From Neelides folsomi (lineage: Eukaryota > Arthropoda > Collembola > Neelipleona > Neelidae), in assembly GCA_034687125.1 (NCBI GenBank), contig JAQGBZ010000012.1:62001-126000 (forward strand): a DNA stretch of 64,000 nucleotides. The letters run 5' to 3'. Both the position numbers and the translations under genes were made by a program. Under the pieces are notes generated by a model. That model worked only from the letters and a program-made list of their open reading frames with translations. It ran no database searches and had not been told where the DNA came from. Of this stretch, positions 33,280-62,667 are shown one piece after another; within the stretch, counting starts at the first letter, position 1, and the number at the start of each line of letters is the position of its first letter.

Positions 33280-36200
33280 TCAACTCCGTCTTGGTTCGAC
33301 CTTTTGAGAATGTTGGTTGAGGACTTTCTGGTTGTCGATGCATCTGAGGCAGCGGATGTAGGCTCGTATTTCTGTTTCATTTCTTGGGGTTGGCGGAGGA
33401 ATCACGGCTAAATTGCACGAAGAGATGAATCAAGATTAATTGAGCTTATTTTAGAGGTTATTTGGGGTAGACTTACAAATTGGTCGGCTCCGGCAGTGAT
33501 TCATCATCCGGATGGTTTGAGCGAACATGTGCATCTTGTCAAAGTTGACAAGTCCGTCGGAATAGGTTTTATTCCCGTCATTCGTGAAAGTCAGGTCTTT
33601 GAGAATGAGAGGCATGAAAGGGATGGTGGGTGGATTCATTTTGTTCAGGGCTATTCGGTATGCTCGATGATTTCTTGAAGGCTCAATGAAGGCCTCGAAT
33701 TCTGCAAACGTTTTCCGGGCCTTTGAAGGAAGACGTTCCCAGGTTTGGGCCATTCGGGACACGGCAGTGTTCGAGAGGCCCATAACGATGGCAAAAAATG
33801 CATTTACATTCTGATACTCCTTACAACTGAAATTGGTCAAAGAAAGGAATTTGAAGCATTTAACTAGGTATTTACATATTAAATCAGTATATATTTACAT
33901 ATTAAATCAGTATAATTGGGAATAATGGTAATTGGGCTTTTAATAAACACAAATGGAACATACTATGTTGCGAGTTTGAGAAATTTCCTGATGAGCGTCA
34001 CACGCTTGCTTGCCGTTGGCGTGAGGCAGATTACAGTCACTACCCAAAATTGAACTTCGTTGAATCTCCGAAGAAAGACGTCGAGATTTGACGTAATTTG
34101 ACGAAATTGAGATCGGCCCAGTGTGTGGTATATCAATTCGTACTGCACAGAGATCACGCATGGAAATAAATCAAAGAGAATTCGCGTTAATTTTCATTTA
34201 ATTAAAATTAAATTTAGAACAAGAGACTTACAGAATTGAAGCTACTAAAAGCTACAAATAATCGAAAATCAATTCTAGGGACTAAAACAAAATTCCCTTT
34301 TAAATTTTTATTATGGAAAATGTAAAATAGCTAATTTTGGTTATATCTACGCGAGAAAAGTTTGGAAAGAACTCTTTAACTTTTTTTACATCAATGTTAA
34401 TAAATAATGATCGGTTTTTATCAGAACTCAGAAAGATGGAAGAAAGGGAATACAAAAGCTAGGTGTTTTGGAATGGAAGAATGATGAAATGAATTTAGAT
34501 AACTATAAATTTAATACTTTCTCTTTGGCGCTTGAAAATAATTTGAATGACAAAGAGGAGGTAAAGTTGTGAAGTGTAATAAGTATAAGCTTCACTGACC
34601 TCAGGAACACATTTGAATAAGCTCCAATCCAACAAGGTCATATGGTAGGCGAGTTCACGGGTGCTGAACATCTCAAGGTCTGAATCCATTCCTTCTGTTG
34701 GTCTCTCTTGCTCCGGTAAACACGTCTAAAAAGAATTCAGTTCAATAAGTCACAAAATACATTTTTCTCATTTCGCTTCAATTTCCGATACCCTCGAAGG
34801 TTCAAGTACTTTGATTTTCCTCAAAAACTTTTTACAAGTTTATTCAAGCCGAATCTCAACATATAAGAAAAGCAGCAAATTATTACTATAACATATAAAA
34901 ATCATTTCTAGGATGAAAACAAAAGTCTTATAAAATAAAATACTTTAGAGTTTCTTCTTAAGAAAGTGTAACAAGAAGGTAAATAGGACCAAAAATTACC
35001 TTAATTTTATAGAATAGAGTACAAGTTCATACAATAATAATACAAAACATTAAAAAGTAAATTAACAGGAACACAATATATTACATATTATAATAGGTAC
35101 AGACATAAAACTACATGCTTAGATATATCTATATTAGATTTACCTATGTAGTTCGACATTTTATAAATGCCAACTTTGGACTATTTTGATACATAGGTAA
35201 GTAGTCTATTACTCAATTCTTCTTCATTAAATGTTTCACGAACTTAAATCTTTTTCGTAAGAACTCCGCATTTAGAAAGGAAGTAATATCGGGATTACAT
35301 GGTAAAAGTTGTCCACAAAAATAAAGAAATTTAACAAATTAATTCTCATCCCCTGAGGAAGGATCAATATTTGGCAAGAGAGAGAATAAGAGTTTTAAAA
35401 CTTATTTTGTATTCTGCTTAAACTAAGAGAAAATGAAGACGCTCCTGCCTACGGCCATAAGTCGACCTTAACCTTAATCAAATGTAGGCAAATGTAACAT
35501 TTGAAAACGGTATATAAAGATATGCTCCTCTACTTACTAAATGAGAATTTAAATGATTATTGTTAAATTGTTTGTTAATCAACCGTATGCATATACATAT
35601 ATGTTAATATATCAATGTACAATTATGTATCACACCTATGTATCCTATCTAAGGATATACAATGTGTGAACTATGATAAACAAGCCATCCACTGCACTTG
35701 TACGTAGTAACAAACAGGAGTACCTGTATTAAGTAAGTACTTGCACATTTATTTATATAAAATATGTAATATATAAAAATGACCAATTTTAAGATAACTT
35801 TTATATTACTTAAATAAGTTTAAACCCAAAAGATATGCTCGAACGGATTAAGCACGGAGAGCAAATAAATGCCCTTCGTTGAGAAGTCAAAGTTGTTCAA
35901 AAGAGAAAGTTTGAGACAAGAGTTGGGCTGAGAACGAAGGAGAAAGCGGATGAGAATTTTTAATTACCAAAGCGTCCAAATGATCCTTGATGGAAACGAA
36001 TATCCTCCCATTGAGACTGAGTGACGTCGGGACACTTACATCGCTGTCTTGGAAAATTACTTTCTCACCTATTGAGACAAAACAAATTATTCACCTTTCA
36101 TTCTCAGAAATACATAGTTATCCCTAATATTTATATAATACCTAGATGCATACTTCGTAGTTTGTATATTTAACCACCCTTCATATACAGATACTAGCGG

Positions 36201-39200
36201 GTCCGTCGTCCCGACGGTATCCCACGAAACCATAGGTCAATAGAAACCCGGTATCCCATCAAGTACCGTTATCTCTTGGGATCGTGGGTGCAAGATATTC
36301 TTATCGTTACAATCTTTGACAGTATCCCTATAGTCCCCTTCTAATTCCCCTTCCGTCATATTTCTGTCCCCCTATAATTCCCCCTCCGTCAAGCTTCTGT
36401 CCCACCTTAAATTCCCCTTCCGTCCCACTTCTGTTCCCTTCTAATTTTTCCCCTCCGTCTAAAGTTGCCCAATAATCCGTCAAATATCCCGATCGGTCAT
36501 TTTTATACAGATAAGATACCCTGAGTTGACAATTGTTGCAGTTTTTTGTGTTTCATCCGTAGGTCTCAGAATTCATTAATATCCTTTAAAGGCTGGTATC
36601 TCACTAATAGTGCTATCAGTGCTATCCATAGATCAGAGATTTAGTCACGGATCCGTTATAACATAATGATAAATAGTAAATCCTTTCCAGAAATGTACTT
36701 TCTGTTCAATTACCCGATAAAAAGGTAACCAAATGATATACTAAATCTGTGTCATAAAAGTGATTATGAATCATCCGTTTGTATGAATCCGCTGCGAAAC
36801 CCGATTTCCCTAAATAATTGGGCTTAATCCAAAAGAAAGAAGCTCAAAGAAGCCGAAGATTCAATTAAATATGATATTTAACTTTTGAGATAATTAATTT
36901 TATAAAATTAAATTAAATAAACGACTTTATTGATTTTTCAAATCACCAAGTGAAATCTGTTCATTTTAATTAATTTTACTGAAAATGTTCAATGAAAAGC
37001 ATTAAATTGCTCTTGGAGATTTAAAAAATAAATAAAGTTGATTGATATTTAAAAAATTTTCTCAAAAGTAAGAAAAAAATTTCGAATCCTCAGGGTGTTT
37101 ATCAAGTTAGAGTCTCCGAAGAAGTGCAGGATGAATAGTGTCTCTATTTTTTATGTGCAAACGTACCAATTAAGGGCATTGTGAAACAATGATCTATTAA
37201 ATAATTCTAATTCTCGCCTCTTTCCCGCATCTCGTTCGCCTTGCCGATAACATTGAGAATATGTGTATGTAAAGTGTGTAATATAGTAGTATATTCAAAT
37301 CATATCCAACTACTATTATCGTACTTTGGTGCAAATTGACATTATAAGAAATCGCACTATAAGTTATAGTACATATTTACTGATACATTTAGTCTATCTC
37401 CTTCCTAAGCAGTTATGGACACATTGAAGGTTTGAAAGGAACGAGAAAGTATAAAGGAGTTTCCATCACACAACACCACTTTTATCGATTAACAAGAAAC
37501 GTAAATTCATTGGCCAAGTCCCCACACTCTTCAATTTACCTAAAATCTAGAAAGGCCAATCCTTTTGGATTCAAATATCTCCTCTACTCCTCCTTAATCT
37601 TTCAAGATGAGGAATGAAAATGATTTTGAATACTAAAGGCCTTTTAAACACCATTCAAAAATACACTTTAGAATTTTCAATTTTATGAAAAATTCACATC
37701 TCCCCATTATGTCTCATATTCTCACATACACATGGAAGACAACGCCCTTGGATTATCAAATTTACACATCAATTTTGAAAGAAAAATTTATTACAAGCTC
37801 GATATTAAGCTCCTCAAATTGAGTTTCCTCACGAAAGGTTAAAGAAAATGTATTCCCCTCGTTTTTGAATTGCCTCTTACTTCCCAATTTCTTCTCATAC
37901 ATACAAGAAATATTGGCCCAAGACCCCGACTTCTAATGATTTATGAACTCTGATGTTTGGAGATAATTGGTATTTAAAATAGACTCACCTGAAGATTTGA
38001 GTTCGACAAGAACGAGGTCATCGTGCTTAAGGCCCAATTTATCCGCTGCAACGTGTTTAAGTGCTTCCACCGATGTGTTCAATGGAAACCTCAGAGTGCA
38101 GTATGTGTGATCGTAAGTATAAACACGGAAAATGACTGTTAATTGAAAAATCAACCTTTAGACTTTTGATTATATGTCAAACAAAACTCATTTGTCATTT
38201 TTGAAATGTTAAGACTACTTTAAAATCAATTAGGTTGACTTTATCTTTAAGACCTCTGGGGCAGTATTAAATGAATCAGGATTGGAGGCTCCATCATTTG
38301 ACCTTTTATATTTTATCTTTAAAATATTTTATGTAAAATGTTGAAGAATAAGGATTTGGGGGTGGAGGTTAACATTACGGTAGGATCCACAAACAATCTA
38401 AATATAACCTTGTTGAATGAATCTTAGGTTTGCAGTTTGCATCATATTACGTAAGTATGAACCGGATCTATGGGGGTGTCTGGGTTCTTTCCCGCCCATT
38501 GATAAATAAATATAGTTATAAGACGTGTGGGAGGATGAATTGAACTTCAAGTTTACGTGGGAGTACATTAAATGGAAAATGCTTGGAATTAACTTCCGGA
38601 GCTTCACTCCCTCATAAAAAGCACGACTGAAATTGGGGCTTATTTCATCTTCATTTTGAAAGTTTGAGCAGTTTTATTTTCACACAATTTTTCTCATAAA
38701 AGTCTTCACAAATGTGAAAGTGAAGCGTGACATAACATAAGTAAGTCTATGTAATTAAATTGCTGATAAATACACTTTAATTATTTAATATATGTGCTAA
38801 ATATCTAAAAAAAATGCATTAACGCAAATTTTTTAATTAAAAATTGTTTTATGTGATTGATCGCAGAAACTGGTAAATTGATTTGATTGTTTAAACAATA
38901 GTTTATAATAGAGAAATAAGCAGATTTTTATGTAAATCATACATGATTTGTATATTTATTAGCATACAGCATAAATAAGCATGATAATGATTAATTAAAT
39001 GATTAAATAATATAAAATAATTAAATGATTTTCTATTTATAAACCTTCATTAAAAGATTGCCTACAATAGGATTATACCTACGTTTAAATCAGCTTTTAT
39101 CTTTTGGGGTTTTAATCAAGAGGAGTGATTGGGTCTTGATATCAAACAACTCGTGCGTTTATTATCCTCTTTTTTGCATTTCGCATGCTCGTTTCATAAA

Positions 39201-42200
39201 CAGAGTGAATCTCGTAGAGTTGTAACCCAAGTCTCTTCCGCACAACTCATCCTTTCCCCAACACTCAACGAGGATCATTAGGAGATAAAGACAATCTGGT
39301 CGTTTTGATATACACATCATTATAAATATACAATATACACAATCTTTCCATTCTATTATAATCAAAAGCTATATAGAATTTTGTATTTTATGGTCGAGTT
39401 CATCCTACCTGCACCTTTGGAGATAAAGAAGAAAAGACTTTCTCCTTGGAATCAACTAAAGGGAATTTGAAGGCCAGTGGAGATTGGGAAGAAGTGGGCT
39501 ATTGTGAGAGAGACTTTCTGATATAGAAAAAGTATATGTATTTTCTTACTGTCGTCAGATGGTCTCATCACACAGCGTTTCTCCAGGGCTTGCTCATTAT
39601 TTTCGTCTGAATGTCCGGACGCCGGGGCTCCGAATAAAGTCACTGGTTGTCCGGAGGGAGGAAGCTTCCACTTTTGTCCAGCCGCTGCTGTTCTTTCATC
39701 TTCGTACACTCGAATCAAGTCAATGACTTGTTGGATGAGACTGACCTCCTCTCTCAGAGTTCCGTATGCAGTTTGTTCCAACTTCACGTCTTCATACAAA
39801 CTCTACAAAAAAATTCCAAGTTTTACATTTATGTATGTATTTAGGTAACACATAAACTGTATGTAAGGTACATACCTACCTGTATATTAAATTGAGCTCA
39901 GTTTTTACAATCCATTATTTAATTTAAATTTTGAAAATTGAAGTATTGGAATCTTCAATAAGTCATAATCAATGCCGATTACAATTTTTATTTTTTCGAA
40001 TTTGTAATAATTGATCATGACTTATTGAAGATTCCATTAGTTAAATTACAATTATGTTAATTTTTAAAAGGTTTGACAAGGAGCTTTAATTAATTCATAT
40101 TCTAGCTCTTTACTGCAATAATAACTCCCCTGAACTCATATTTTAAGCAAAACAAATAGAGAAACTTGTCCTTTACCTGCATGCTATGAAAGATTACATA
40201 AGTTTTAGGAGAGCATAAAAGGGCTGAAGTACTCGAGGTAGCCAATTTGAAAATTTTCATTATCTTTTCTTTCTTGTTATAAAATTCCCCTCAGGGGAAT
40301 GGAGAAAAAATATAAAATTCACGAGTCTGTGAGAGCGGAGACAACTCAAGGGTTCTTTCCATTTGCTCTCTTGGAGGGCGTAAAAGTCATGGTGGGTTGA
40401 AAAGATGAGTAAATTTGAAAAAGAGAATTTTATTACCTTGAGGAAGGAGATGGTGGCCGGCTCTTCAAAGACTGGATCTCCAATCGTTGTAATCCATCGA
40501 TGAACAAATTGAACGACTCTTCTTTTACAAGCGAGGAGGAATTCTTTATCGTGACAACTGTCATCAACCCTACAAGTGATTCTATGGTTAAGGAAAACTT
40601 TGTTTTTCTCTTTTTATTGGAACTCATTCCTACAGACGAATACTACAAATGCTATATTGTTATGTAAGTACCTAAATGTGTAAATTAACATACCTACATG
40701 GTAGAATTTAACTAGCAATACAATATTATGCTTGTTCATTGCGAAAATAAAATATAAAACCATTAAAATACATGTTTAAACCTAAGATTAACCTTCAAAG
40801 ATTTTTTTATAATTATTACATGTTGAAAGTGATGAAGTAAAAGTGAATGTCAGAAGTTGTTTTAAAATTTAATCTTTAATTTTGGAGTTTGGAACTACTG
40901 AGTTTTTAAAAATTTATGACTCGAGACTTTTAAAAAGTGGAGAGTTTCTTCTTTGTTTGCCAAGGCCTGAGAGATAATAATTAACTTTAATGAAACAATA
41001 AAAACGTTTGAGTTCAAGAAAGGTTTGAGTGTTCATATTAAATATTAAAAACACTTCCCATTGAAGAAAGTTTAAAGATTCTCACACATTGAAGAAGTTT
41101 GATAAACCCTAACGACTTTCCGCAGTCTCAATTCAAATCAAAAATTCTTTATGTAACTAGTTACATAACTATATTTTGAGAAACAACTTCTGATTTACTT
41201 TGTTGTTCTCCAACCAAAAGATAAATTATTGTAATATTACTTATTCTATGCTAATGTGTACGTTTGAAAAGGATATTGTCTCGAGAGCTCTGCGATGAGC
41301 TGAAGAACCGGCATGAAGATGATATGAGTAAGGAGAAAGTCATCAAGAAAGAGGTCGGTGCTTCCTCCGGATGAAGGTCTCCGATTCGCCCCGTCTCCAG
41401 ATCGATCTCGCCCGTCCAACCGAGTTTCAAGTAAATGTTCAAGCATTTTCCCCGGGCTTCCGCTCATTACCGAATACCTTATTGAATCCAAAACATCGTA
41501 TTCCGTTAGGTGGGAACCTGGCGATTCCTGAGTGGTGAATCCACTTCTTCATTCAATTACACCAATCAACTAACTAATAAGCTTGATTTTACCCTAAATT
41601 TCAACTCTCAAAATGATAAATACATAGTATACGGAAGCAGGCATACTTGTATACAATATTTCAATTAAGCAGCATTAAGCTAAATTAAGTCGGCAATATA
41701 CTTTAGATACATAGCACTACATACACATCAACTCAATCATCGTAACATGCTACTCTCATAATCAAAAAACCAGGTCATAAAATTAAATAAAGTTGTTATT
41801 TTGGCATTATTTTGTAAGATTCAAAGATTATCTGAGATATTATAGTAATTAACCGATTATTATCAAATAATGTCACAATGTATACAAGTTTATAAAGGTA
41901 TAATATTTAAATATTACTTGGGGTTTTTTCATTATTAGATTTTATATCAAATAAGCAATAATTGTGGTGGAATTTGAGTAAATTGAAACTAGAAGCAAGC
42001 TAAGTATAAACAATAACAATTCGAGTGAATATAGTAAAAATAACAAGCTCCTATTTTGCCCACAAGTTTCATAATAAGAATACACGAAATAGAGTACAAA
42101 TACACGATTGGTAAAGGCAAGCGAAGGAAATTGGATTCCAACCATAATATAACTAACCCACTTTTGCTTTCCATTTCAAAGTGAAAAAAGGTAAAATAAG

Positions 42201-45200
42201 AAATTCAAGAACCGAATTGGAGGCATAAATATTTGTATATATAAGCAGACGGGAGGGAAACAGAGAAATCTAAAAGTATAAAATAGAGTAAAAGAGTGAG
42301 GAGGTAATTTCTATAGGGTTGGAAGTGATCGATGAAGATTCGGGACGGTCCGGGAGACCAGGAATCGAATATAAGTGAAAGTGGACGAGGAATTCGGAGA
42401 TAAAGGTTCTTCAAATGAAAGGAAGTGGGGAGATGAGGAACGTATTGGCCGAATTAAAGAGAAAAAGTGAGTGTGAGAAAAGGTCTTTTCCTTACTTGAA
42501 GTGTGAAAAAGGGCTGGCATTGTTTGCCGAGATTTTTTCCAAGACTAAGACATCCTGCCCGTGCTCTTTGAGGCGAACTGTGTTAGCCTCCACGTCTCGT
42601 AGTATCCTATTGAAATCGTCTTTATCGACTCTGAGGAAATGACAGTTATCCTCGCGGAGAATGATAGTGGCCGCTCTGAAAATGAAAAAATTCCGTCATT
42701 ATGTCCGTTCTCAAGAGCCCTTCTCCTGAAGGGAAAGGAAAACGAGCGGATAAGGCATTAATTTTCATTCCCAACTACTTCCACAACCATCCAATTCAAT
42801 TACACATTCTCCCAAATGCCATTTTGAGGCAGAGGGGAAAAAGTCCTGTCGCTTTCAGATGTCAAGTCCAGGACCTGGCGGAGATCCGATATGTAATAAA
42901 CCCCTCCCGATATTGAGAATATGTAATATTTAGTATTCAACTGGAAAATCACATGGGCCGTTGGGTCTCATTCCAACTGAACAAGGACTACGACAACCAC
43001 AGATTCCCAAGAATCTCATTCTACTACTTTCTTCAATTCGTCTTCAATTCATTCTCATATCAATTCCAATTTTCTTTCTTCTCATCCAATCTTGCATTGG
43101 TAGAGACATAATATAATAGATATCCTGCCTATTACATTAAATTCATGTTATGCTTAAAGAGGGAACAGTTTTTGAACTCTCCTTAAACTTCAACAGTTCA
43201 TTAAAGGAGAAAGTAAGTCTAAATAAACTGAGAGAAATTGAGGAATCGAACTCAAGTTCTCTCATCGTATCGAGCTAAAAGAATGGCATGGGGAAATGTA
43301 AATGAGATTTCTCTGTCTGTGTACTTTCACGCTTCTTTGATCAAGACTTCAATCAAAAGGTTTTTACATCTTCCTATACTATATACTTTTACTCTTTCGA
43401 CTTCTACTCTTTCGTCATTTCTTCCCCGCTCTCATCCTCATCAATTGTTCTAAGGCGATTCATGTTGAATACTCCCATATTTAGAACATGTACTAGTATA
43501 AGTGTAAATAGTTTATTTTCATTGTAATTTAAATATTAGACTATTCAAATGCTCTATTTAAAATTCTCTACATTTTCATTCTAAAAAGAATCAATGAAAA
43601 CATTGTTTCATTCAAGGTTTTCATGAAGGAATTTTAAGCCTCTTTATATTTTTTAGGTATTTGCATAACGAATGAACTAGAATAAATCCCTATACAATCT
43701 CAATTGACTTGCATTTTTATGTTTTAAATATATTAATGAGTGGGTTTTCCAGTTTGAAAAGTTGATTTAAGTAGGTGCTTACATAATATGGTAAAATAGC
43801 GCTTTGTTTTTTCTTGAAATGACAGTGGATAATTGAAATTATAAATATAATCTGATGTGTTCGCACATTGTGCGAATAAATGAGATGTTACGATTAATCC
43901 TGTAAGTTACAATTAGAGTACATTATGCAAACTAGAAAATACCATTAAATATCTATCTACCTTGTACGTACGAAGTACGAAGCACGGAGTTAAATGTACT
44001 CACATAATATAGGTGGTAAGCAAAGTTCTAATACTGATAGTTAAGTATAACTATCTGTAAATCCCTATAAGATAATTGAAACTTGTTAGATTACTCGATC
44101 ATCATACTGTGATAACATGAAAGTAATTGGACTGATGAGTGATGAGTTGATCAGCGAGAGTAACGATCATTGAATTTTTTTGGAACTGGCATTTGAAAGT
44201 TGTTTACAAATTGATTCTCGTTTGCATTGGACTTATTTTAATTAGGAAAGTTTAGGCTAACAATAAGTACTTGCCTCATTTCAATTTTTCAAAGAATTCA
44301 TTAAATTTAAAAATGAAGATTAAGCATAATTTTATTCTTTTACCTGGGAGCATCGTTGATGAGAGCCAATTTCCCGAAATCATCACCTTCGAATAAAGAT
44401 GTTACGTTTCCTTTGCCATGAATCACAACGTTGACAGAGCCCTTGAGGATAATGTACCAACTCTTCCCTTCATCTCCTTGATGGAACACTAGAAATTGAA
44501 GAAGGACATTTTGAATATGCCATAGGACAAAATAAGCTTTTAAATTAAATCATCAATAGGAGTATATTTACAAAATGGGAATTGGAGTTGAGGAAATTGG
44601 CTATTTGACTTGCACTTGTCAATGCCTAAATAACTCTCCTAATGAAACTAATGATTCTGTTTACGTAAACCCCCTTTGTTCCTCTCGGACCAAACGTAAA
44701 TGAAGAGATTGTGATTAAAATAGACAATAAATGACATCGCGGGGTCTCCAAAGTGGGAATCATTTTGTTCACAAAATTTCTAACAAGAGACTCCAAATTG
44801 TAAATCATCTCGTGCTCAAGTTCCATTTATGTGTAAGTATTACTATAACATGATGTTCAACTTTATCGATTTGGAGTGATGAAGTGAAATTAATTTTGAT
44901 AGAGCGGGGCTTACAGACAGTGTTGGCACTTGGATGAGCTTCAAAGACAATGACTCCAGCCAACTCTTTCTTGACAGAGTTTGAGAGATGAGCGAGGGCT
45001 TTGATATGTAGGAGTTCCTCGTAGATCATTTCCAGGTCATCGGCAGTCCGCTCAAAGGAAGGCTTCCTCAGGACAAGTCGCATAATTGCATCGGGGGCCC
45101 GCTGAGCCAAATATGCTAAAACTTCTGAACACTTCATGTCCGCCTCCCGCTCATCATCGGGGCTGGGAAGGCCACGACTCCAGCTTCGACTTGTGTGTTC

Positions 45201-48200
45201 CGACTCCGCATCGATGGTGAAACGGTAGAAGATGTACTTGTCTCGAAACGGGTGCTCATGAGAAACTAGTTCCAAGAAAAAGAAAAAAATTCCATTCAAT
45301 CCCCCAATAATATTCCGCCAAGAGGCTTCCACTTCCGCAGTCCGAGGAGAAGCAAAAGATTCTCAGTGTGGAATTTTATCAACCTCATCATCACCGCATA
45401 GTGCCTTCTTTTTTGTATTAATCAATAATGGTGATGATCGCATGAGAAAACCAGAATTGACCCTCCGTTAAATCCCATCCAACAAATGGTAATATAATAA
45501 TTATTAACCCTTCTTGGGAAGAATTTATGACAAGGTTATCAATTGATCAATAATGGGCTTTTTTGACAATCCACCTTTGAATTCCAATCTTCCGCCTCCT
45601 CTGCGTTTAAGTTCAAAAATGGGAAAAATAATATGTACAAGTTTAAATGGCATAGCTCAGATTCATTTCATTTAATTTAATTAGAGGCCATTCGAGACGT
45701 CAGCAATGAATTAAGATTTACATGTAATAAATATGAGTGTTTTCAATCTTTTCTCCCTTTTCCTTTCTGTTTTATATGATTGTCTATCAAATGGAGTCAA
45801 ACATGCCTAGTAAGATTATTAAAAGTCTTATCTAGATCTCAGCAACTTTCAGGTTGAGTAATTCGGCCAGGTTTACAGTCGAGGGACATTGGTGAAGGTG
45901 AGTGAGGATTATTGCTATTCCCTTCTTCATTAGTTCAATCAACCTGCGTTAATGACGAGTCTTGTCCCTGTGATTGGCCCATGTGGAATCAATCTCGAGC
46001 TTCAATTAACTCATTTAATTATTGCTTATACATTTCAGTTGGAAATTATATTTCATGGGAGTTGGCTCTCGTTTATTGAATTAAAACCCGTTTGGAGGAG
46101 GAGGAATGAAAAAACGAGGTTTTCAAATATATGTAGTCAAAGGGCATTAAATGAGAATAATGATCAAATTCTCAGATTCTTCCAATTACTCCCCAGGATC
46201 ATATATTATAGAAGAAAAGAGAAAATGATGATTAAGGCTTTGTAGGTTTATAGAGCAATTATGTGATGAGTAGTAACTGTTATCATAAAGTAATGAACCG
46301 GAGAGTCTCTTTTATTCACACAGCCTCATCACTCCTTCCTCCACCCTCCCCCTAAAGAAAAGGAAGATTAAAAGAAGTCTCAGGAAGTAGATCTCTCATC
46401 TAAATTAAACTTTATCAAGCTTCGCTTAATGAGGAAAAATCTAAAGTTCAAGAAGTTATTGATCTTCCTCTAAAAAGCTTAATTGACATTGAGGCGTTTC
46501 TCTCCAAGCGAACTTAAACCCACTCACCAATTCTTCCCCAACCATGATATTCTATCCTTAAAACTCCTTCCATTCGAGACTCGAATTCAAATATGTATCT
46601 AACAAATACGAGACTCGCAATGTGTCAGTTATAGCAATTAGTCTTCCTATCACTCACGAGATCCAAGACACATAAAAGGATATTCCAATAGATACTTTTG
46701 TGTCTGAACAATTTTAAAGGAATATTATATGAAGAAGTTAATCTAGGCTTTAGATCCGCTTTATATCACATTACGATTCCCTACACCCGTACATGCGAAT
46801 TCTCTAATTTTCATTCTGAGCTGAAAATTACGAAACGAGTTTTGGATTCAAAGAGGACAATTGTGTAGCAATCGCACTTTGCACGTGAAACACAAGGAAT
46901 GAGTACAAATTGTAACGTGTAACATAATTTGAGTATCAGACCTAATGAGCCGGATCAACATGTTGGCAACATTTTTCAAAATTCAGAGCGCATTACCATC
47001 TTATATGTTTTTTACCATTCAGAACATGCACATGTGCTTTGTTTTATAAATTATGTTGTAACTTTCCGCATCATATTCATCTAATTCCAAACTAGTCAGA
47101 GGGATCCTGCACTTATTGACTTACCATACAATTAGTAAATACTCACATTGTTACATTAAAATATTCTTTTCATGTTTCACTAATTTGCTCACACAATAAA
47201 ACCATATAGGATAAAAGGATAAAACTAATAATCTGTAATATATAACGGTTTGAATTCTGACTTTAATGACATTATGTACCTAAATACATAATATTGTACT
47301 TATTTATTGTATTTGTATTATAATACAAATAGTATGTACTACCCAACAACGAAAAGGTTTGCTCCTTTGTTGATGTCAAACTGAGGGACGGCGCAGATAT
47401 AATCTATATATTTAATATAATCTATATAAATATAATCTATATAATATACGGACGTAGATATAATCTATATATTAAACACGTGATGACGGTTTTCTTACAT
47501 TTTCCTATTTATTATTAGCAAAATTTATATACATTGTATGGAGTATGCATTCAAGGAATATTTGTTCTGTATTAATAACGCATTTTATCTAACCATGTTT
47601 GACCTAAAGGCATATCTCTCTGTAATTGAACTTTATTCTGCCTAAAACTCTGAAAATTAAATATCTGCATAATATGAATCTCTCGATTCCAATTTCATAG
47701 ATCTTATGCAAAGATATAAAATTACTAATTAACTCATAAAATTGTAGGGTAAAATATTAAATTACTTCTTATCCTATTTGGCTAAACAATTTACTGAGTC
47801 TCAGCTGGTTTCATATTTAGGAAAAGAGGGGAATGTTATTTGGAGATAGAATTTCATATCATATCTTGGAATACTCATGGGAAAATAGGAAAAGTAAATT
47901 AAAGTAGACACGAGAAGTTGTGCGGACTAACTAGTGGAGAAATAGAGATAGAAAACCCCTGTGCTAAGAGTACCGGACTCTTCGGTGATTCTGAAGAATG
48001 GATCAAAAGTAATTTTCCTTCTATTCGCAACTGCATTTAAGGCAAGTTGACAAACTAAATTTTTCATCAAAGGATTCCTCTCCAACTCTTCATTCCAACT
48101 TCTAACCAACTGTGAGAAAGTAAACATCCTCCTTCATTTATCTTACAGGAATGAGTCGAGTGCTACACTCAACAGTTGAGTGCGTTTATCCGGGTGGCAG

Positions 48201-48314: not shown

Positions 48315-51300
48315 TATAAGGCTGAATAAAACCTGTATAAAAGAATTCAATTTCAAATTGGTGGATGAATTACGACCCTGTGCTCTTTTTTGTAAAAAGT
48401 GCATGTGTCATAAGCTTCGAGAATAAACCCTACTTTACTAGACTTGTATATTATCAAAGGGAAATAAGATGGTCACATTTAGTTTAAAACCCAGCATGGA
48501 GTCTTTTAAAATTTCCATAAATATTGAAGACGGAATGGAAAAGGGTGATTTTACCATTTTGGATGATTCCTTCTTCGAGAAGTGCCTGCCACATGCCTGT
48601 CGCTTGGTGCCTTGATTTCACAATTCCACTGGCACTTCCAATCGCCAAGAGCCAGTCGACCATTTCTGCCCCCACCAGACATCTCCTGAACGTTCTGGCC
48701 TGTTGCCGTCGATCTCGGACAAGGCCAGGTGAACGGGTGAGGATGAGAGTTCGGAGAATTCGCCCAGCTCGAGCAATCTCGGGTGTTGAGCACTGGAAAG
48801 AAAACTTTGTAATCAATTTCGAGTTGCTCGTCAATCTCCGACCCATTCGGGAGTGTAAAAGAATGTTTGAAGCTCGCTAAAAGAAAATCTCACTCAGGGA
48901 TGGTTGAATAATTTAACTGATCGGTCCATCGTGGAGTTTAAGTGCCTTCGTCTGCAACTACCCGCGGGATTTATTATAAAGTAATAAATATTAAATAAAA
49001 TGGACATTTTCTCTCCCGGAGATTTAACTTAAGCCCTCGATACATGAGATTTTACACTCGAGTTGATTCTACAATTTATCTACTTTATTTCCACTTTTAT
49101 TTTCATTCTTCCATTTATAAAATCTACACGCATTTCTATTAATTCCATTTCTCTTCTTATAAAAATAATTTATATACCTACATTATATGTACAATTCATT
49201 AAATACATGGAGGGATAAAATTTATAGTTTCATTCTGTGGAGAATCTCAACTAGTGGTCGAGATTGGATTTTACTGAGGATCCGAATTTGTTCTGAATTT
49301 GGTAAGAACAAAGGGAAATGAATGATTGATATCATTCGGAGGGAAAGTGGAGGTGGTGGGGCCAAGGAAAGACTCCTGAGGTTGTTCCAGTCGACTCATG
49401 ACCAGATGTGAGAAAAGGAAAGCAATTTCCTTCAAGAGCTTCCCCTTCTCATGAAATAGTAAAAACGGTAATGCAGGGAGTTCCGACTTGGGAGAGTCCT
49501 AAAGTATCCCTTTTCACTTTGTGACTTGATGTGGAAAACCTATTACTCACAAAAAATTCTTGGCTTCACATGTTTTTAAACCGTTTTTTCCAACACATCC
49601 ATTCCTGTAAGGAACTCCCTATAGATCCCATCGACTAACCTCCGTCTTTAATTCCAGGAAATGAAAACTGGAGTCAAATGTGCTTTTCTTTCCCCAATTT
49701 CCAAATTCACAAGAACACACCTTGAAAATGGGAAATTGAGGATGGGGAAATAATAAAAGGTAATTTGATCCCGCTTTCTCACCATTGCAATTGGAAGTGA
49801 TGGATTGGGGATGTCCACTTGGTTCTTTGGAGGGCGGCCGGGATCGAACACATTTTTTAAATTACTTCGGCTCCTCTGGCTCTCGAGAGCTGGAATTAAT
49901 TAAATATTTCATTAAACCTTCTATTATCCCCCATTAAGCTCCCCGAGTTGTTTCAAATGATTGCGGAGTAAAATCTGCTGGAAAGTTGGAAGAGAAAGCT
50001 GTCAGAAAAACAAAAGTTCTTTCAACTGCAACCAAACAAAATGTTGGTCGGTTTACAAAGAGCTGGAAGGAAAAGTGAAGTAATCATCCCACTGCGGTAA
50101 TGCGGTTCAGTTTGTTTCGCTCTTTATTTATTTTACTTAATAAATGAAAGGCATAAATAAATACACATCACTCCATTACACAGCCGCTGGAACAACCAAC
50201 ATCTACATACATAATACAAAACGATTTTTCTTTTGTATCATTTCCCATTTTTGTATTATAATTTTCTTTTAAAACAATCATTTACAATATTCATGAAAGA
50301 ATTAAACAAACACACTATATTACATGTATTTACATAATACATACTATACATGCATAATATTATACTCTAGTAAATAGAAGCACTTAAAAGCATAATAAAA
50401 TACAAATAGGCGTTTTCTGTATTAAAGATAATTTTCCACATAATAGGTATGTTATATACATAGTACATTACTATGTATTGCATAGTTTACAGTCTGTACA
50501 GTTAAAGAGAACCCGAATCTCTCACTCGTTATTTCGCTTATCTCATTATACCATGAATTTAAATGAAATCTCTTTAATCCTCTTCAGAGGAAGGGGAAAA
50601 TTGTTGAGAATGAATCCAACACCTCAATTAAGTGAGAAGCTCTAAGCTATTTAGCACTCTATACCTCCGGATACCTTGCGTAGATAAAGGATCTTTTGAG
50701 TCAGGGCTAAGTGGATCAGATTCGCGGCATTCACCACTAAAGAAAACAAACAAGAGGAAAGTTTTCTCACAGTTCAATGCGAGCTCACATGTGTTGGTAA
50801 GGAACCTGGTTTCCGATTGGCTTCGTTGAGACGGTGGTAAGAATTCTCTAATTTCTCGTTACTTCATAATCAACGTGTCGATGTGTGTGAGAGAGTTTTT
50901 CATCCTTTCATTCATCAGGGATCATTGAAGAAGTAATCGCTGGGTTGGGTCCAGAATTTCCATCAGCTTTATCCTTTTTTGCTCATTTCGCATATGAATG
51001 AAAATATCATGTTCAACTCGCATTGTGAGTGAGCATTAAATTGAGTAGAGGTTATAAAGTCAAGTTGGCATCTGCTGCTATATGAGCACTTGACTCCTTG
51101 TCACACCCTCTTCCGCAATATGGTTTTATGGCAGTAGGTAAAATTTGAAACTTGCTCCTCCCATGCTGTAAATTGGTTGAGAATCGAGCGAAATTGAGAT
51201 ATGAGACACAGATTGAAGAATGTAGGGCAGTGTGAACTTCCTCAAAACTATGTTTGAATACAAATCACAGCACCGTTTTGCAACTTCATTCCTTTATTGT

Positions 51301-54300: not shown

Positions 54301-57300
54301 AGTCGCGAGATTAGTTTTAATAAAATAATAACAAACAATAATGGTCTTCCATGTGAAGGATAATTGCATTTGGAAGAAAGAGCTATAAAAAACGAAACGT
54401 CCTAAAGCCTCATTTTACTCATTTAATTAAAAAGCAAAAAGCAGTTTATTATAAAAATACACCCTAAGACAAAGAAGCTCATTTTAAAAGATGGGTGAAG
54501 AAAGATAAATTTTATTAAACTTACTGTGTCGGAGTTTAGTATGGCCCAGCATATCCTCCATTAAGTCTTTATTCTTCTGCAAAGAATACACGAAGACATG
54601 TTTATTGTCATTGATTTGAAGCTCATAACAGGGGTAACCAATGCATATTTCATAACGCTCTCTCTTCCGTCTCCCCCTCGTTATTTTCCCAGGAGCTCTC
54701 CCGGGTCCAGGGAGTTTCTCAAAAGAGCTCTCGCGGGTTTCCGAGTTCTTTATGTTCCCCATCTTCCTATTCACTAATTGACACTTTTCCCGAATCACAT
54801 TATCACCCAAATTGGCAGTAAAATGTTCTGGGACGAACGGAAGGGCCGCGATGCTCGACGGATCTTCATTCTCATAGAAAACGTCCGTGGAGGGATTTGG
54901 CAAATGTTCGGCGAAGGAGTCGAAAGATGAGGACGACGACGCGACGTTGCTGATTCCCGAATCTTCCGAGTCGGAAAGGCTCCGTTTCTCATTTTCGAGC
55001 CCTGGGCTCTCCTCTTCTGCTATCATCATTAGAACAACTCTCCTTTAATTATCCCTCCGGAACTCATTAATCGAGGAGCCACAGAAAAATTACGACCCAC
55101 TCCGTCTCTTCACAACGGCTCTTCAGCCTCACAAATGAACACGTCCAGGGAATATGTACATATATAAAGGGTCGGTAAAACTTCGCATTTTCACCGCCCT
55201 TTGTCTGTAATTTGCTAATGGGAGGAATTAGGAAGAATGTGATCTCAAACTTGTCTCAAACTGGGATGAAATAATTGAGTTCACGAGAGCGGACGCCGAA
55301 CTTCACTCTTTCGTTCCTTTGAAGAGAGTGAACAGGATTCAGATCTTTAAGGAGGGTGTCAAGAGATGAAAATCCTCCCCATTTTACTCAGAGAATCTCT
55401 TGGATGTGGATGGGTGCTACTGGTGTAATATGAGGAGTCACTCTCTCTCACCCTACACCGCATTCTGTTCAAGGAAGGAGATCCTCCACTAGTTAGTTAT
55501 TACAACTGTAAGTGTATAGCAAGTGCAACCACAGCGGATTCAACCATAAATACATAGGAGGGAGAGAGAATTCTTTACTATATATTATATTAGTGTTCTC
55601 ATACACATTGATGTTCCAATGCTACTCGCACAAAACTTCCCCATTCAATTAACTTTTTATGATAGATTCAATGAATTTGCAAAAAGATTTATTGAGATTT
55701 TATGAGAAAATAGTGTTAGTTGTAACACTCTGGGAATAAATATATCACGACTCTGAAGCGATTAAATCCTCTGAAATACTCACACTCTTCGAACTTGAAC
55801 GTAACTTACATAAAAAAGGTTGCGTAGCAGCATACAAACATAGCCTTCAAATGTAATATGAATGTAGAGTATATCATACTGCGTTGCAAATATTAATAAT
55901 CGTTCACATAATTAATAAAATTTGACATTTATACTTTCAATGCAGAATTTTATGATTCCACCAGGCAATATTTAATAAAAGAAGGAATGGAATGGTGAAG
56001 GAGGAATTCGAATAAAGAATTGCAAAGTTGTTTTTTTGATTGGTTGATTATTGAATTATTTAAAACATTTTGGATCGATTCTTGAATTCAATTGCTTTCC
56101 AATTTGTTTCTTTTGAACTACTTAAATTGAGGTGAAGAAATAAACTTTACAATGACCATCAGCGTCAACGGAGTCAAAGTGCGATTCTTATTACGCATAC
56201 TCGTGAATACCTTGATAAATGTACCTGTAGTTATTTTAAATATTCAGGGTACTTAATTGTAAGTTTTAAATAAATGTAATATAATTTTGAAATGTGCTTT
56301 CAATGGCTGGTTTTCTTCTATAAAGTATTTATGTATTTACCAACTTCTGCTTTATGACTTTTAGATTTAATAATACAGGAAGGTTCAACATTTACTTAAA
56401 TAATTACCCAATTTTGCTCCGTTAAATCTGCCCAAATCGCATCAAACCATCTCTTATCTTATTAATCATTAAATTATGGGTTTGGGGAAATAATTGAGGG
56501 TGACCGACGTGGAATCACGGCATTCCAAAATGAAATTGAACTTAAGGAAAATATCCGCACTCGAATAATTGCACAGGTAGTTGATATATGTAATGACAAG
56601 TTAATATTCTCATTCATGGAGAGGCCAGAAGGAAAATTTGAATTGCATTGATGGTTGATCGAAGATTAATTGTCGTATATTGCTGTTGATTACCACTTTA
56701 AAAAATAAATTAAGACTTGCGTTTCCTCCATCAACTTTCCTTTAAAATTCCTGGTCTTGGTGACTTACGGGAGGGAGGTGAGTTGGGGAGTTTTTATGGC
56801 TTTAGATGAGTGAGATCGAGTCAAGACCTTGGCATCTGCAAAATATGTATGCACTTCGTTCCTTCTCTCCCTTCCCGTCAAATGGGTTTCCCGTTTTTCA
56901 ATGTCGTGTCTCTCCCCTCTTCAAGACGAAGAAATCTCCCATGCTTTAACTACATCTTACAACCAATATATTTAAAATACAATACATTCCACTTCAACAT
57001 TCTCACTCAAATATAGAAAATACAAACATAATATTATGAATATATAGCACTGACATTTCACAGCACGTATGTAATACTCTTATGTACTGTAGTAGTAATA
57101 TTTACAAAATTTTTACAAAGATCTTCATTATATCCAATATATTTGAATATTTTGAATACAAACATTTCCATATAAGGAATAGATTGTACATTAGCTAAAT
57201 TTTGTCGGGACTTTACAATTACTGAACAATAATATAGTAGAAATTCCAACATAACATGCACATACATAATGTAGTACAAAGAGAGCGAGTCTTCTCACTT

Positions 57301-60300
57301 TGGAACATAATAAAACCTCCCAAACATGTTCTCTCTCCGGCCCTTCAAATGTGGTGTGAGAGAAGCTCAAAATGTCACTCTCTCTCAGAATCAGTCTGAA
57401 TTAGAATGATGGGCATTGGAAGGAAATGATGATGAAGAACTTCCGACCAAGAACATCTCGGAAGGCCTACACAAGAAGACATTTCCAAGACGAGTTTTTG
57501 AACCGTGGGAAAGAACAAATTCTTAAGTAGAGTGAACTAATTCATTTTCCAATAAAAAGAATTTACCGAGTCAAGTACTTTGTTCGATAAGAACCAATAA
57601 AGAAGATCCAACAATTGGGTTTGAATTCCACAACAATTTCCACCTCATACTAATTATCATTAACCATTATCTGAAAATCTTTAACGACCCTTCCAAGTGC
57701 CGGTGGATCTTCGAGTCGGCTTTGCAAACAGTTGCTGAACAGACTTTGCCAACTGGGACGCTAAATTATGTATAAGTAGGTATACCCATTTGCCACATTG
57801 TTCACCCATTATGCACGAAATGTCGATCTCTCGTCAGCTCTTTCGCTTGGAGTGAGGCGGGTCAAGCTAAGCGCGTGGAAAAACATGAGAGACCTTTTGG
57901 CATTTTCGCTAAACTGAAGGAAATGCTTAATCACCTATTTTCCCTCGGATCATTAAAATACTAGCTTCCCAATTTCCGCATTTTCTAAAGGGCTGAAAGA
58001 GCTTGTTAATGATCATTAGCAAAGGTTGCAGAAAATTTTAATAAGGATTGCAAAAATATTGCGTTTTATTATAAAAATTATTATTTTAATAATTTTACAA
58101 GTTTATGCTTCAAGAGATTTTTTGAATTAATAAATAATAAAAACACTCATTATGTTCTGTTAAGATTAAATTATGTTTACTAGAATTGATGACAAGAAGG
58201 ATAAAGGAGAATATTAGAAAATATGAATTAAAAATTAGACAGAAGTTTGAAGGAAAAAGATAGGAAAATGGTTCTTATCATGCTGAGCCTCATTAATTAT
58301 TTATGTAAAAATTAATATTCAAGAGGATTTTGGAAATAGACATGGACCAGTTTGCCTATTTATTTAATGATGAGAACATGAAAAGCTCATGCTTATGGCT
58401 ACTGAACCGGCCACTTTTCATGTCACCAAAACAGCATGGGAGAAACTTCAAAGATTCATGAAGATTTCATCATTGTAAGATCTTTCATATGGCCATTAGG
58501 GGAAGCCAACCACTCCTTTGCATCTTACATTACAACAAGAGAGAGCTTCAGAACTTATGATAAATTAATGTTTGATACTTACACTTACTAACCTAAGTTA
58601 GTGAGTGAGAATATGAGGAAGGCTTTAACTGCATATTGCCCAAATCACGAATTTACAAAGGACCCATTCCCCACATTAGCCCTTTGGATTCGCATTGAGG
58701 TTCTCGAGTGAATTGGGAATTCATTCCATAATGCAAACAGCTTTGAAAAGTTTTCATTATGTTGGAATTCAATATTTTGTTTAGTGACAGGGGGGCCTAT
58801 TTCTTTACTTGAGAAGGATTGATAATGCGGATAATGCTAAATGTCTCGTGCATGGGTTGGATAGAAAAACACGCAATGAACACCATTCATATTTTTGTCA
58901 TTGTTTAGATCTTTCAGGACTTTCTCTATGCTGTCTCTATCAGGTCACAGAAAAATGGGAATGTGACTTGGTTTTTAATTTTTTCGATTTCATTCGCAAG
59001 TGTGAAAACACATTAAAATGTCTTGTTAGACTACAAAAACCAGTGGAGGGTAAAGGACATTTGACAATGATGACCAATATTTTATTAATTAAGGAACAAG
59101 AGAGAAGGGATTTCTTAATTGAGAAATCTTGTACAAAATGCTTTTGTTGGTCATGGGTTGTTAACAATTTTTATAGATTTAAATTGAGCCATTCAAGTCA
59201 TAGTCATTGGCCTTCATGGGTTCACCAAAAGGTAAACTTGTATGGTGAATAGAGGTTTTGTTTTTGTTGCGAGTTCGTTAGCTCTAGCGTTAAATTCCGA
59301 CTTCTTGAATAGAAATTTATCAGTCACTTTTAATGGAATTAAGCCGGAAAATCTTATTTTGATGGATTGAATGGTTGGGTGAATAAAACGCTAATCAAAA
59401 CTTGAATATTGTGGTTAAATTATTGATTGAGGTGAAAGGTGGTTTTTCGGATTAGCTTACACAGATTCTTATAATTAGTAAAGCAAATATTTTTACTTGC
59501 GTTATTAAATAGTATTAGGTACATAGTATTAATAATATTGTTTATTTCTGCTAAGCTTGAATAATCCAATTACCTTTACATAATTATTATACTCATATAT
59601 GTATGGTACACACTCTACGTAGCTATTAAATAAAGAAAGAAGACTTACTGAATGTGAGAAGTTTTACTTGTCTAATAATCATTTTTTAAATATATTATAA
59701 ATTATAAATGAATAGAAAATGGGACAAAAAGATAAAACTTGGATCATTTTCAATTAACCTCAAGTGGGATTAAAATAAAACACGCTTCAACATTGCAAAC
59801 TCGAGAAATGTGTTTAATATGATCAAAAAATCCACCCAGTTTCGACGATTGCAATAATGTTTATTTAATATGATTTTAATTTTGAATAAATTGGATTTGA
59901 AGTATGTGGAGTGAAAAGGAATTTATTAAAGTGTCTCCAAAGACTGTCTTTGTTCTCTTCTGTTGAAATGTAGTGAGTCGAATATAAATGAAGCATATGC
60001 TGAAAGTAGAGATATATTTATTTATTACATTAATAAGGGCCTTATTCGAACAATTAAGATAGCTTTGAACAAGATGAATATAGGCTCATTAATACAACAG
60101 AACTGATTTCTCTCAAAGGCCTTTATAGGACAAAGGGTTCATTAAAAGGGTGAGACTTTTCATAAATCTCCCGACCATATTTTAAATTCAAAAAATGTTA
60201 AGGCTCCTCGACTGCTTGAGATTTAATTACTCCAACCGTTCCTTTCTCAAAGGAGTAAACTCGGATTTTGGAAATTTCTGAACTTTCTTATCTTTAACTT

Positions 60301-62667
60301 TCGTTAAATCATATGAGGACAACTCACTGTGACCTAAGCTTATACCAATAGTCAAGTTCTACATACGTATAACATATTTCTAAAGCTCTTCTTTTATAAT
60401 CTCTTCGTTCGAATGAAGACGTGACCTTAATTCCATAAATATTCGACTCAATTCATAATGATTCAAGCTTGGCTTTCAAACTTGTATGTCTGAAAAAGTA
60501 AAAAACCGAAGTAAAGCAAATTCGTTTAGAAAGTTATAACTTACACGGTATAAAAAATGTACTTATTTATTTAGCTTAAACAGTGCAGTGGATGAATAAT
60601 AATCTTTACATACAAACATACTTGGTATATCGCCAAAGTTTAATTCACTGAACTACATATTGGTATATGTAAATATACTTTTGTGCGTCTCGTATTATAT
60701 GTAGTAGGTAGTACAGATACATATTAGCTATGTTATAAGATACGTATATGGAGAATTTTCTTTAAAATGGGTAACCTTATATCAAGTCTTTATGAGAATT
60801 AAGGAAAAATAGGCTGTGTGTTTATAATTTTATTAGGACAGCGCTTGGGAATTAAGAGCGGAGGATAAAGTTGAGAAAGTCTTAGAGAGCAATTAAAAAA
60901 TGTCTTTTCGAGCAAAGCTATCTTTTATAACTAAATAGGCTTAAAAATAAAAAAACAAAACTTTTTTATCCATGTATAGTTTATAACATCATAAGATACA
61001 TATTATGTATTTAATTTATATTTACCTACAATACAATACTCTATATTAGTTAATTAAACTTAAAACGCGTGTCCTCCAAGAATTTTTTTAAAACACATTC
61101 AATGTCAGTCGCATATTGAATGTTATGTATGTATATTTAAAAATACAAAATATTTAGTATAGGTAGTAGTAGAGCAGTATAATAGGTTTTGAGGTTTTAC
61201 AGGATCAATATAAAATGACTCGTGAACATTTAATTATCACAATTTCATAACGTATTCTATATAACTAAACCCGAAGTATTTTGGCAATCAGACTTGTTAA
61301 TTTATTAGAAACTAAAGTTTACCTTGTAAATTTGTCTTTCAAGTCATGAGGATGTAATCGAGAAAAAATAGTGTATTTTTAAACAGACAAACTACCACAG
61401 GTGTGGATCGAATAATAGGATTTCCTTGGTATGGGAGCCGTTCAAGTTGGAATAACCATCAAGCAATAATCCTAAATGAGCTTTTTGAAATGAAAGTGGG
61501 ATGAAGAAGACAGATACTCCCCGGATGTCCATTAGGACTGAAATCGAATCGATGCTTTTCCGTCATATACTTTTACTCACTCGTTTCTCCCTTCCAATTT
61601 GGTCTTAAAAGGATTTCAACTCAAATTAATTTTTTGTCTCAACTCCCATTTGTACACTCTCTTTTTCATATTCGTCTTTCTTCTCGCAACTTTTCCCGTT
61701 TCCTTCTCCAAATAAATACGTAAGCACGAATGGAGTATTCATTTACAAATTTAACGATTGATTTATTAAATGCTTTTTATTTCTTTCGTGTTATTTAATT
61801 ACTTTTTGAATGTGTTCCGTTAATTCTTTGGTATGGGTATTTTCCTATCTTTATTGGATAACTGTGCTACATGCAACAGTTCAAACAATAAAACTAGGTG
61901 TTAAATTGAACACTTTTCACCTCTCGGCCATAAATTCTGCTTTCGTTCCCATCAATCTTTCATTCATTGGTTCGACTATCACCTTACATTCATCCATTTC
62001 TTTTTAGATCGATTTTGTCCATTTTATCCAAAATGACCTCTTCTTTTTTCCGATTCTTCCAAATATTTGATCATTTTTATTTATTTATTTTCAATAATTA
62101 ATTATATGCTGTTTTATAGAACAGTAACAGTCGCTGCAAATTCTTACAATTTAAATAAAAAATAATTTTGTGTTCTTAACCACAAATCATATTATCAATA
62201 TAATTAATGAGTAATTAATTAATTTTCGAAGAGAGAGCGAAGAAATGTGCATTTGGGTTGAGTCACTATAAGTAGAATGGTAAAAAGTAGGGTGCGAATA
62301 CTCACCTGCCAGAGTAGACGAAAGTCTCTTTGCTCGATCCTTAGGAGTTGACATGGTTCTCGCGTAACGATCGTATTTTCTCTAGGCGAATCGTCCAATA
62401 TGGACTCGCCGAAAAAGGAACCCATCCCGAGACTCCGTGAAACCGCGTGCATGTCCTATTTATCAAGTGTAAAATCGGGAAGTTTTATTCGGGGTTCCTC
62501 CGGAAAGGAATTTGAAATTCCAATCCGCCCGACTACGTCAAATGGGTATAAAGTCGTAAGGGCGAGTGAGTTCTTTACCTCAACTATTCCCGTTTTGGAA
62601 ACATGAACATCAAGGGTTCCAATGAGGACGGCGTACCAACTCGTTCCCCTGTCCCCTTGGCGGTACA
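33280..62667 (-). CDS. RAPGEF4: Epac / Rap guanine nucleotide exchange factor (RAPGEF3/4 type), 5' partial, 17 exons seen
   Basis: Exons (- strand): 62667-62579, 62455-62306, [54525-55029 possible alternative first exon], 49889-49783, 48792-48555, 45265-44915, 44488-44344, 42675-42496, 41477-41262, 40569-40437, 39802-39550, 38135-37989, 36068-35968, 34725-34600, 34142-33964, 33826-33477 and 33407-33280 (TGA). Domains: first cAMP domain ([26 protein letters not shown]); DEP ([23 protein letters not shown]); second cAMP domain ([32 protein letters not shown]); REM ([26 protein letters not shown]); RA ([18 protein letters not shown]); CDC25 GEF ([67 protein letters not shown]). cAMP binding frees the GEF domain to load Rap with GTP. 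The two cAMP domains favour an Epac2-like form. The start is upstream of the window, and an exon completing the first cAMP domain after LLWQ (phase 0) is not found. Confidence 0.94.
36184..36500. repeat. C-rich imperfect tandem repeat in an Epac intron
   Basis: Between exons 36068-35968 and 38135-37989. From about 36340 to 36465 a unit of roughly 38-40 bp, with core AATTCCCCTTCCGTC and CTTCTGTCCC, recurs about four times with small changes. It is preceded at 36192-36230 by ACTAGCGGGTCCGTCGTCCC and two copies of a GGTATCCCA motif. The base composition is strikingly unlike the surrounding AT-rich intron, suggesting the end of a dispersed repeat. Confidence 0.65.
39947..40036. repeat. Short inverted repeat (about 90 bp) in an Epac intron
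   Basis: The arm TGGAATCTTCAATAAGTCAT at 39947 is matched in reverse complement at 40017-40036, and the pairing continues inward with small bulges (AATCAAT, TTACAA). The whole unit would fold as one hairpin of about 35 bp with a short loop. It lies just upstream (in transcription order) of the exon at 39802-39550. Confidence 0.7.
47398..47476. repeat. Imperfect AT-rich repeat (TATAATCTATATA units)
   Basis: TATAATCTATATA occurs four times within about 80 bp (near 47398, 47415, 47431 and 47458), in an Epac intron. It is a local satellite-like expansion with no evidence of function. Confidence 0.6.
48281..48309. repeat. (TA)n microsatellite
   Basis: About 14 uninterrupted TA units in the intron after the DEP exon. 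Likely polymorphic. Confidence 0.9.
49890..54524. other. Large Epac intron
   Basis: About 4.6 kb of AT-rich sequence on the non-coding side of both flanking exons. Short ORFs here have no splice-site or homology support. No transposon ends were recognised. A short TTAC tetranucleotide run lies near 53254-53270. Confidence 0.5.
54525..55029 (-). CDS. Likely alternative first coding exon of the Epac gene, about 168 codons
   Basis: An ATG-ATG start at 55029 with an in-frame TAA five codons upstream opens a frame to a strong GTAAGT donor at 54524 (phase 1). Joined in phase to the exon 49889-49783 (phase 1 acceptor, phase 0 donor) and then to the DEP exon at 48792 (phase 0), the frame stays open to the Epac stop, giving a 1052-residue protein without the first cAMP domain. 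The peptide starts acidic and serine-rich ([19 protein letters not shown]), then has a basic [14 protein letters not shown] stretch and [20 protein letters not shown] recognise no domain. No phase-0 acceptor at its 5' side would link it to the 62455-62306 exon, which favours a separate promoter. A minor alternative is an unrelated nested gene. Confidence 0.6.
55030..62305. other. Large Epac intron and possible internal promoter region
   Basis: About 7.3 kb. The 500 bp upstream of 55029 would hold the promoter of the putative short isoform. An exon completing the first cAMP domain (a phase-0 to phase-0 exon after LLWQ) is expected here but I could not identify it. A plus-strand ORF at 58809-59252 (147 codons) has no supporting evidence. 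No repeats with clear ends were seen. Confidence 0.45.

Follow-up and report, generated by a model that had tools for sequence, protein, structure and literature searches.

A predicted hybrid first and internal exon in the Epac gene of the collembolan Neelides folsomi

Does the Epac gene of the collembolan Neelides folsomi give rise, alongside its long form, to a short form that starts from an internal promoter and lacks the first cAMP domain (cAMP-A)? The question is raised by a 505-nt open exon on the minus strand, which a first-pass annotation took to be the first exon of such a form and to be out of reach of the cAMP-A exon upstream. We analysed the whole 64,000-nt stretch that contains this exon (C12:62001-126000, hereafter the window, in whose own numbering all positions are given), which comes from a 75.1-Mb genome of 840 contigs. 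In our own reading, the mitochondrial gene order and COI of this genome appear to be of arthropod type. As judged from the sequence, use of the exon as an internal exon is strongly predicted, and its use as a first exon moderately so.

The Epac gene and its probable long-form junction

The minus strand of the window carries a gene of the Epac (RAPGEF3/4) type, whose 3' end lies at 33280. Its domains follow one another in the order that marks a RAPGEF3/4 gene, that is, cNMP, DEP, cNMP, REM, RA and RasGEF, as mapped by tblastn with a mouse probe. REM and RA were placed by tblastn only, and one RA exon gave no Pfam match above the cut-off. Exons of cAMP-A, DEP, cAMP-B and RasGEF are recognisable, and a phmmer search with the N-terminal half, once joined, gave mouse Epac2 structures at E 1.4e-124. 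The parts of the gene outside the 505-nt exon are these, with splice junctions marked by a slash here and below:

62579-62667, minus strand: first cAMP-A core exon, part of the joined open frame and of the mouse Epac2 structure alignment
62306-62455, minus strand: second cAMP-A exon, ending in the phase-0 donor CAG/GTGAGT
49783-49889, minus strand: likely linker exon of 107 nt (the 49.8-kb exon), phase 1 in and phase 0 out
48555-48792, minus strand: DEP exon (Pfam PF00610, E 1.7e-11), with its acceptor at 48792
44344-45265, minus strand: pre-cAMP-B stretch and cAMP-B exons (44915-45265 and 44344-44488), in a joined open frame
33280-42675, minus strand: remaining gene, comprising the end of cAMP-B, REM, RA, RasGEF and the stop codon TGA at 33282-33280

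The first recognised exons of the long form are found a little beyond the window edge, at 64.65-64.93 kb on the window's scale (locus L016). The first of these exons begins with an in-frame ATG (MYDRPGERS), a candidate start, and a pattern search of 64.9-104 kb gave no candidate for a long-form first exon still further upstream. The large Epac intron also holds a stop-free frame of 154 codons on the opposite strand (58788-59252, plus strand). Elsewhere in the window we found an exon of the Mob1/phocein family (13851-14225, minus strand; Pfam PF03637, E 7.9e-22) and two exons of the ASC type (amiloride-sensitive sodium channel, PF00858), one at 21075-21284 (minus strand, E 3.3e-10) and one at 26919-27077 (minus strand, E 1.9e-4, just under the cut-off), which possibly belong to two adjacent channel genes. 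Transposase remnants lie at 18855-19559 and 28125-28442, both on the minus strand; their matches are to a Tc3-type helix-turn-helix (E 5.6e-7, just under the cut-off) and, weakly, to DDE_3 (E 0.071). An Rfam scan of the window gave no match.

According to the first-pass annotation, the 505-nt exon has no phase-0 acceptor and cannot be joined to the cAMP-A exon; on both counts it was wrong. Inside the exon, at 54576, lies a phase-0 acceptor, TTCTTTGCAG/AAG, which in its longer context, tcttcgtgtattctttgcag/AAGAAT, scores 11.2 with a matrix built from 14 other acceptors of the same Epac gene. Among all 1734 AGs from 33 to 65 kb it ranks 5, with no better one outside the training set: the four AGs above it (44488, 34142, 42675 and 64745) are all training sites. 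Its phase is that of the cAMP-A donor at 62305, whose CAG/GTGAGT is the top of 1546 GT donors and is itself a training site.

Another check on this junction, independent of the acceptor score, is homology alone. Between 62284 and 48793 there are 729 AGs, of which 368 open a frame for 11 codons; these were compared with KYRQYMAGLLA, the residues that follow ALWE in mouse. The 11-residue peptide opened at 54576 scored 13, the best of the 368, and the next scored 8. When the 52 nt downstream of this acceptor and the 107-nt exon are both included, the alignment to mouse Epac2 structures runs unbroken over 1-426, across LLWQ/KNKDLM; without these two linker exons, the mouse structure is matched in two main pieces. 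The one-stretch query also contained two added upstream exons, and its bit scores are not cleanly comparable with those of the two-piece query. The codon score of the 52-nt exon is 0.266, coding-like and the best of six frames over only 17 codons. Three patterns for the mammalian linker helix motif gave no match; the diverged peptide surfaced from the scan of every AG.

Because the acceptor is strong and its peptide is the best homologue, the cAMP-A exon most likely splices into the 505-nt exon, and we hold it very probable that the long form contains the junction from 62306 to 54576. The last 52 nt would then most likely be an ordinary internal Epac exon. If the cAMP-A exon is spliced to 54576, only the first 151 codons are specific to a short form. 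We predict that long-form transcripts carry the 62.3-kb exon spliced to this one, and such transcripts would be compatible with an internal promoter. The Epac gene model is corrected irrespective of any short form: without the last 52 nt of this exon, the long form's cAMP-A domain would be incomplete.

The acceptor of the 49.8-kb exon at 49889 is middling (rank 141 of 1734), and the exon's codon score is weak. A second acceptor, 14 nt inside this exon at 49875, outscores it (6.0 vs 4.1). Coming from 54525, use of 49875 would break the frame. Its phase fits the cAMP-A donor (phase 0), and the exon would then keep 93 nt with 31 open codons; a long form that skips the 52-nt exon could arise in this way. 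We also considered, and rejected, a splice straight from the cAMP-A exon to the DEP exon, which keeps the frame (phase 0 to phase 0, with no stop) but loses the helix.

Open frame and promoter motifs upstream of the junction

The candidate short form would begin in the following features, again all on the minus strand:

55159-55166, minus strand: TATA-like box TATATATG, which fits TATAWAWR
55133-55138, minus strand: initiator-like TCATTT, which fits TCAKTY, with a predicted transcription start at A 55136
54525-55136, minus strand: predicted short-form alternative first exon, in which 168 codons and 1 nt follow the 5' UTR, a unit put together from the open frame, the donor and the promoter motifs
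55029-55067, minus strand: 12-codon upstream open reading frame; its TAA stop shares the A of the main ATG
54577-55029, minus strand: the 151 codons specific to the predicted short form, putatively coding by the open-frame test and intron-like in codon usage
54525-54576, minus strand: shared exon of 52 nt and 17 residues, predicted to complete the cAMP-A domain in the long form

Much of what the first-pass annotation had reported here was borne out. From ATG 55029 to 54525 the minus strand is open for 505 nt, that is, 168 codons and 1 nt, and an in-frame TAA stands directly before the ATG. The donor ACA/GTAAGT at 54524 is in phase 1 (rank 23 of 1546 GTs) and fits the acceptor at 49889, from which the frame passes in phase 0 to the DEP acceptor at 48792. 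Both joined frames, that of the long form and that of the short form, are open.

The open frame of this exon is more than chance is likely to give. Among 2000 dinucleotide shuffles of the 505 nt, none kept the 151 codons open in frame 0, while 46 had 151 or more open codons in a row in one or another of the six frames. In 1000 shuffles of a 1119-nt region, 186 codons were reached in 6 and 151 codons in 22. The GC content of the 151 codons is 0.48, a value reached by 32 of 2071 stretches of equal length, known exons among them; that of the window is 0.32. Upstream, GC stays at 0.40-0.46 per 100 nt to about 55530, and beyond, on both sides, it is 0.25-0.37. The peptide is acidic and Ser-rich over residues 1-60, after which comes a basic stretch, TRGRRKRER.

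Codon usage gives a different picture. We trained a codon model on 14 Epac exons and on genomic pieces from 40 of 41 loci, dropping locus L007 (under 50 open codons). Tested on left-out coding pieces, it picked the right one of three frames in 52 of 54. The 151 codons score -0.007, against a coding mean of 0.166 and -0.046 for intron ORFs; only 2 of the 54 coding pieces do no better than this, and 9 of the 36 intron ORFs do at least as well. Over the full 151 codons frame 0 comes first among the three forward frames, but it does so in only 2 of 5 slices of 50 codons, and one reverse-strand frame over the same codons scores 0.101. Adding the reverse strand to the null brings the score to -0.046; 2 of 54 coding pieces are then at or below it, 15 of 36 intron ORFs are at or above it, and frame 0 leads in 1 of 5 slices. 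By synonymous choice alone, a weak test in which the true frame was best in 37 of 54, the 151 codons fall below all 54 coding pieces and are equalled or exceeded by 15 of the 36 intron ORFs. Since kinase and cyclic-nucleotide domains made up most of its training set, the model may mark down a Ser-/Glu-rich disordered tail; the likely linker exon at 49.8 kb likewise scores low (-0.061). Overall, the codon usage of the 151 codons looks closer to intron than to exon. The 151-residue peptide had no match in Pfam and no convincing match in PDB (best E 0.95), no second copy elsewhere in the 75.1-Mb genome, and no relatives in viral contigs.

The two promoter motifs fit consensus sequences given in PMC6483594, the Drosophila TCAKTY for the initiator and TATAWAWR for the TATA box. 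From T 55166 of TATATATG to A 55136 of TCATTT is exactly 30 nt, and the initiator lies 107 nt upstream of ATG 55029. In 4000 shuffles of the 500 nt before the ATG, a strict TATAWAWR-TCAKTY pair never occurred, a relaxed one occurred in 6 and a loose one in 27. Across 104 kb, the pair before ATG 55029 is the only strict one on the minus strand, and the plus strand has three, located at two sites; by simple arithmetic, about 1 in 100 stretches of 500 nt would carry one at such a density. We give the motifs moderate weight, because the pair was spotted by eye before any test and because another strict pair exists at 54450. That second pair (54450-54481, plus strand) lies just downstream of the exon and points antisense through it; it is either chance or an antisense start. 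The internal promoter that the first-pass annotation had suggested is partly supported by a TATA-initiator pair at canonical spacing before the ATG and by a significantly open frame, and is itself a prediction from motifs.

A possible hybrid exon and the alternatives

Gene order, phases, acceptor strength, homology of the 52-nt exon, the open frame and the promoter motifs were all read directly from the DNA. They can be accommodated by a hybrid first/internal exon, with a short Epac made from an internal promoter alongside the long form, a complete statement that we consider about equally likely to be true or false. From the upstream promoter, the cAMP-A exon would be joined through its donor at 62305 to acceptor 54576, and the 52-nt tail would supply the last helix of the cAMP-A domain, followed by the 49.8-kb linker and the DEP exons. 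The internal TATA/initiator promoter would start transcription near 55136, and acceptor 54576 would stay silent in that transcript because it has no upstream donor. Read from ATG 55029, the short form would carry 151 extra codons fused to the shared 17, and its product would lack cAMP-A, keep DEP, cAMP-B, REM, RA and RasGEF, and begin with an acidic, Ser-rich N-terminus. The lower score of acceptor 49889 than of 49875 and the 12-codon reading frame before ATG 55029 weigh against this proposal; the reading frame could tune translation. By analogy with the mammalian forms, we expect the short form to keep its response to cAMP, mediated by cAMP-B, and to have a different place in the cell; the stretch TRGRRKRER could, in our own reading, be a nuclear signal. 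What we infer in this proposal is use of both promoters, the position of the start, a translated 151-codon extension and a changed location.

The main rival to the short-form reading is that only the last 52 nt are exonic, the 151 codons being GC-rich intron that is open by chance, the TATA-initiator pair likewise a chance occurrence, and the long form the only product. We regard this as a real possibility that stops short of being probable. Acceptor 54576 and the homology of the 52-nt exon would alone explain an exon at this place, and the searches of Pfam, PDB, viral contigs and the genome itself found no domain or relative for the 151 codons. An equally long run does arise in some frame in the shuffles (46 of 2000), but the frame that is open here is the one that continues into the shared exon, which no shuffle reproduced. 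The intron-like codon usage also fits this account, but the model comes from structured domains and gives the 49.8-kb linker a low score too, so that a disordered tail could be mis-scored. The GC content of 0.48 within a window of 0.32, the ATG immediately after an in-frame stop and the canonical spacing of the TATA-initiator pair all speak against chance.

Alternatively, the short form may be real but begin with a non-coding first exon further upstream, spliced to an acceptor before the ATG, for example 55127 or 55120. These acceptors are moderate (4.8 and 3.9, where known left-out ones range from -2.2 to 8.9), and the raised GC extends to about 55530. No upstream exon was identified, however, the TATA-initiator pair offers a simpler start, and the intron-like usage of the 151 codons weighs against this version as well; we consider it improbable. 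The version of the first-pass annotation, purely a first exon without an acceptor that the long form skips, is more improbable still, and we give it very little credence. Both direct joining of cAMP-A to DEP and joining to 49875 would keep the frame, the former without a stop, and 49875 does outscore 49889; but such skipping deletes the helix after ALW[EQ] and leaves idle a phase-0 acceptor at 54576 that is among the best in 32 kb.

Comparison with known isoforms and exon classes

At acceptor 54576 the boundary of the predicted short form falls directly after the cAMP-A core (mouse ALWE/K), which is where an Epac2B-type form would divide. Mouse Epac2B (Rapgef4) is transcribed from exon 1b by an internal promoter and lacks cAMP-A; at 867 aa it is 144 residues shorter than Epac2A (1011), and dissimilarity is noted at 145/147 (PMC3701594). 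The predicted short form would resemble it in its internal promoter, itself a prediction here, in lacking cAMP-A, in keeping DEP, cAMP-B and the catalytic part, and in its boundary, LLWQ/K, which lies within about two residues of the mouse one (PMC3701594). The form without cAMP-A that the first-pass annotation proposed is partly supported by this boundary, while the codon usage speaks against translation of its extension.

The two differ in what the alternative exon contributes. Our own reading of 867 vs 1011 aa is that mouse exon 1b adds only a few residues, and a published exon 1b primer contains ATGTCTGAGAA (PMC3701594), which we read as M-S-E before the shared K. Here, by contrast, the first exon would run directly into the shared one and contribute 151 residues. 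For the promoter of mouse Epac2B, Inr and M3 elements are described (PMC3701594), whereas here we found TATA- and Inr-like motifs.

In mammals, the cAMP-A domain has a weak affinity for cAMP and is not considered important in activation; it seems to position Epac2A close to the plasma membrane, and Epac2B has been observed in Golgi and nucleus (PMC4904129, PMC3701594). Among the open-access matches listed, no title or abstract opening mentioned an internal Epac promoter outside mammals. If true, a short form at the same boundary in so distant an animal would make an optional first cAMP sensor a recurring or ancient feature of Epac, and it would offer a simple model for testing what the first cAMP domain does. 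We can go further only as a speculation that we think unlikely: that the Epac2B-like promoter predates the vertebrate-protostome split or arose twice, and that its first exon became, here, a 151-residue extension giving the protein its own regulated, possibly nuclear, location.

Epac1 (RAPGEF3), described as similar to Epac2B (PMC4904129), has one cAMP domain, DEP and the catalytic region, the same set of domains as the predicted short form; in mammals, however, it is a separate gene, while here both cAMP domains belong to one gene. As for the exon itself, hybrid first-internal exons are a described class, terminal in some transcripts and internal in others (PMC10256964). That class, as described there, was drawn from human transcript data, whereas the case presented here is a prediction from sequence of one exon with two 5' boundaries.
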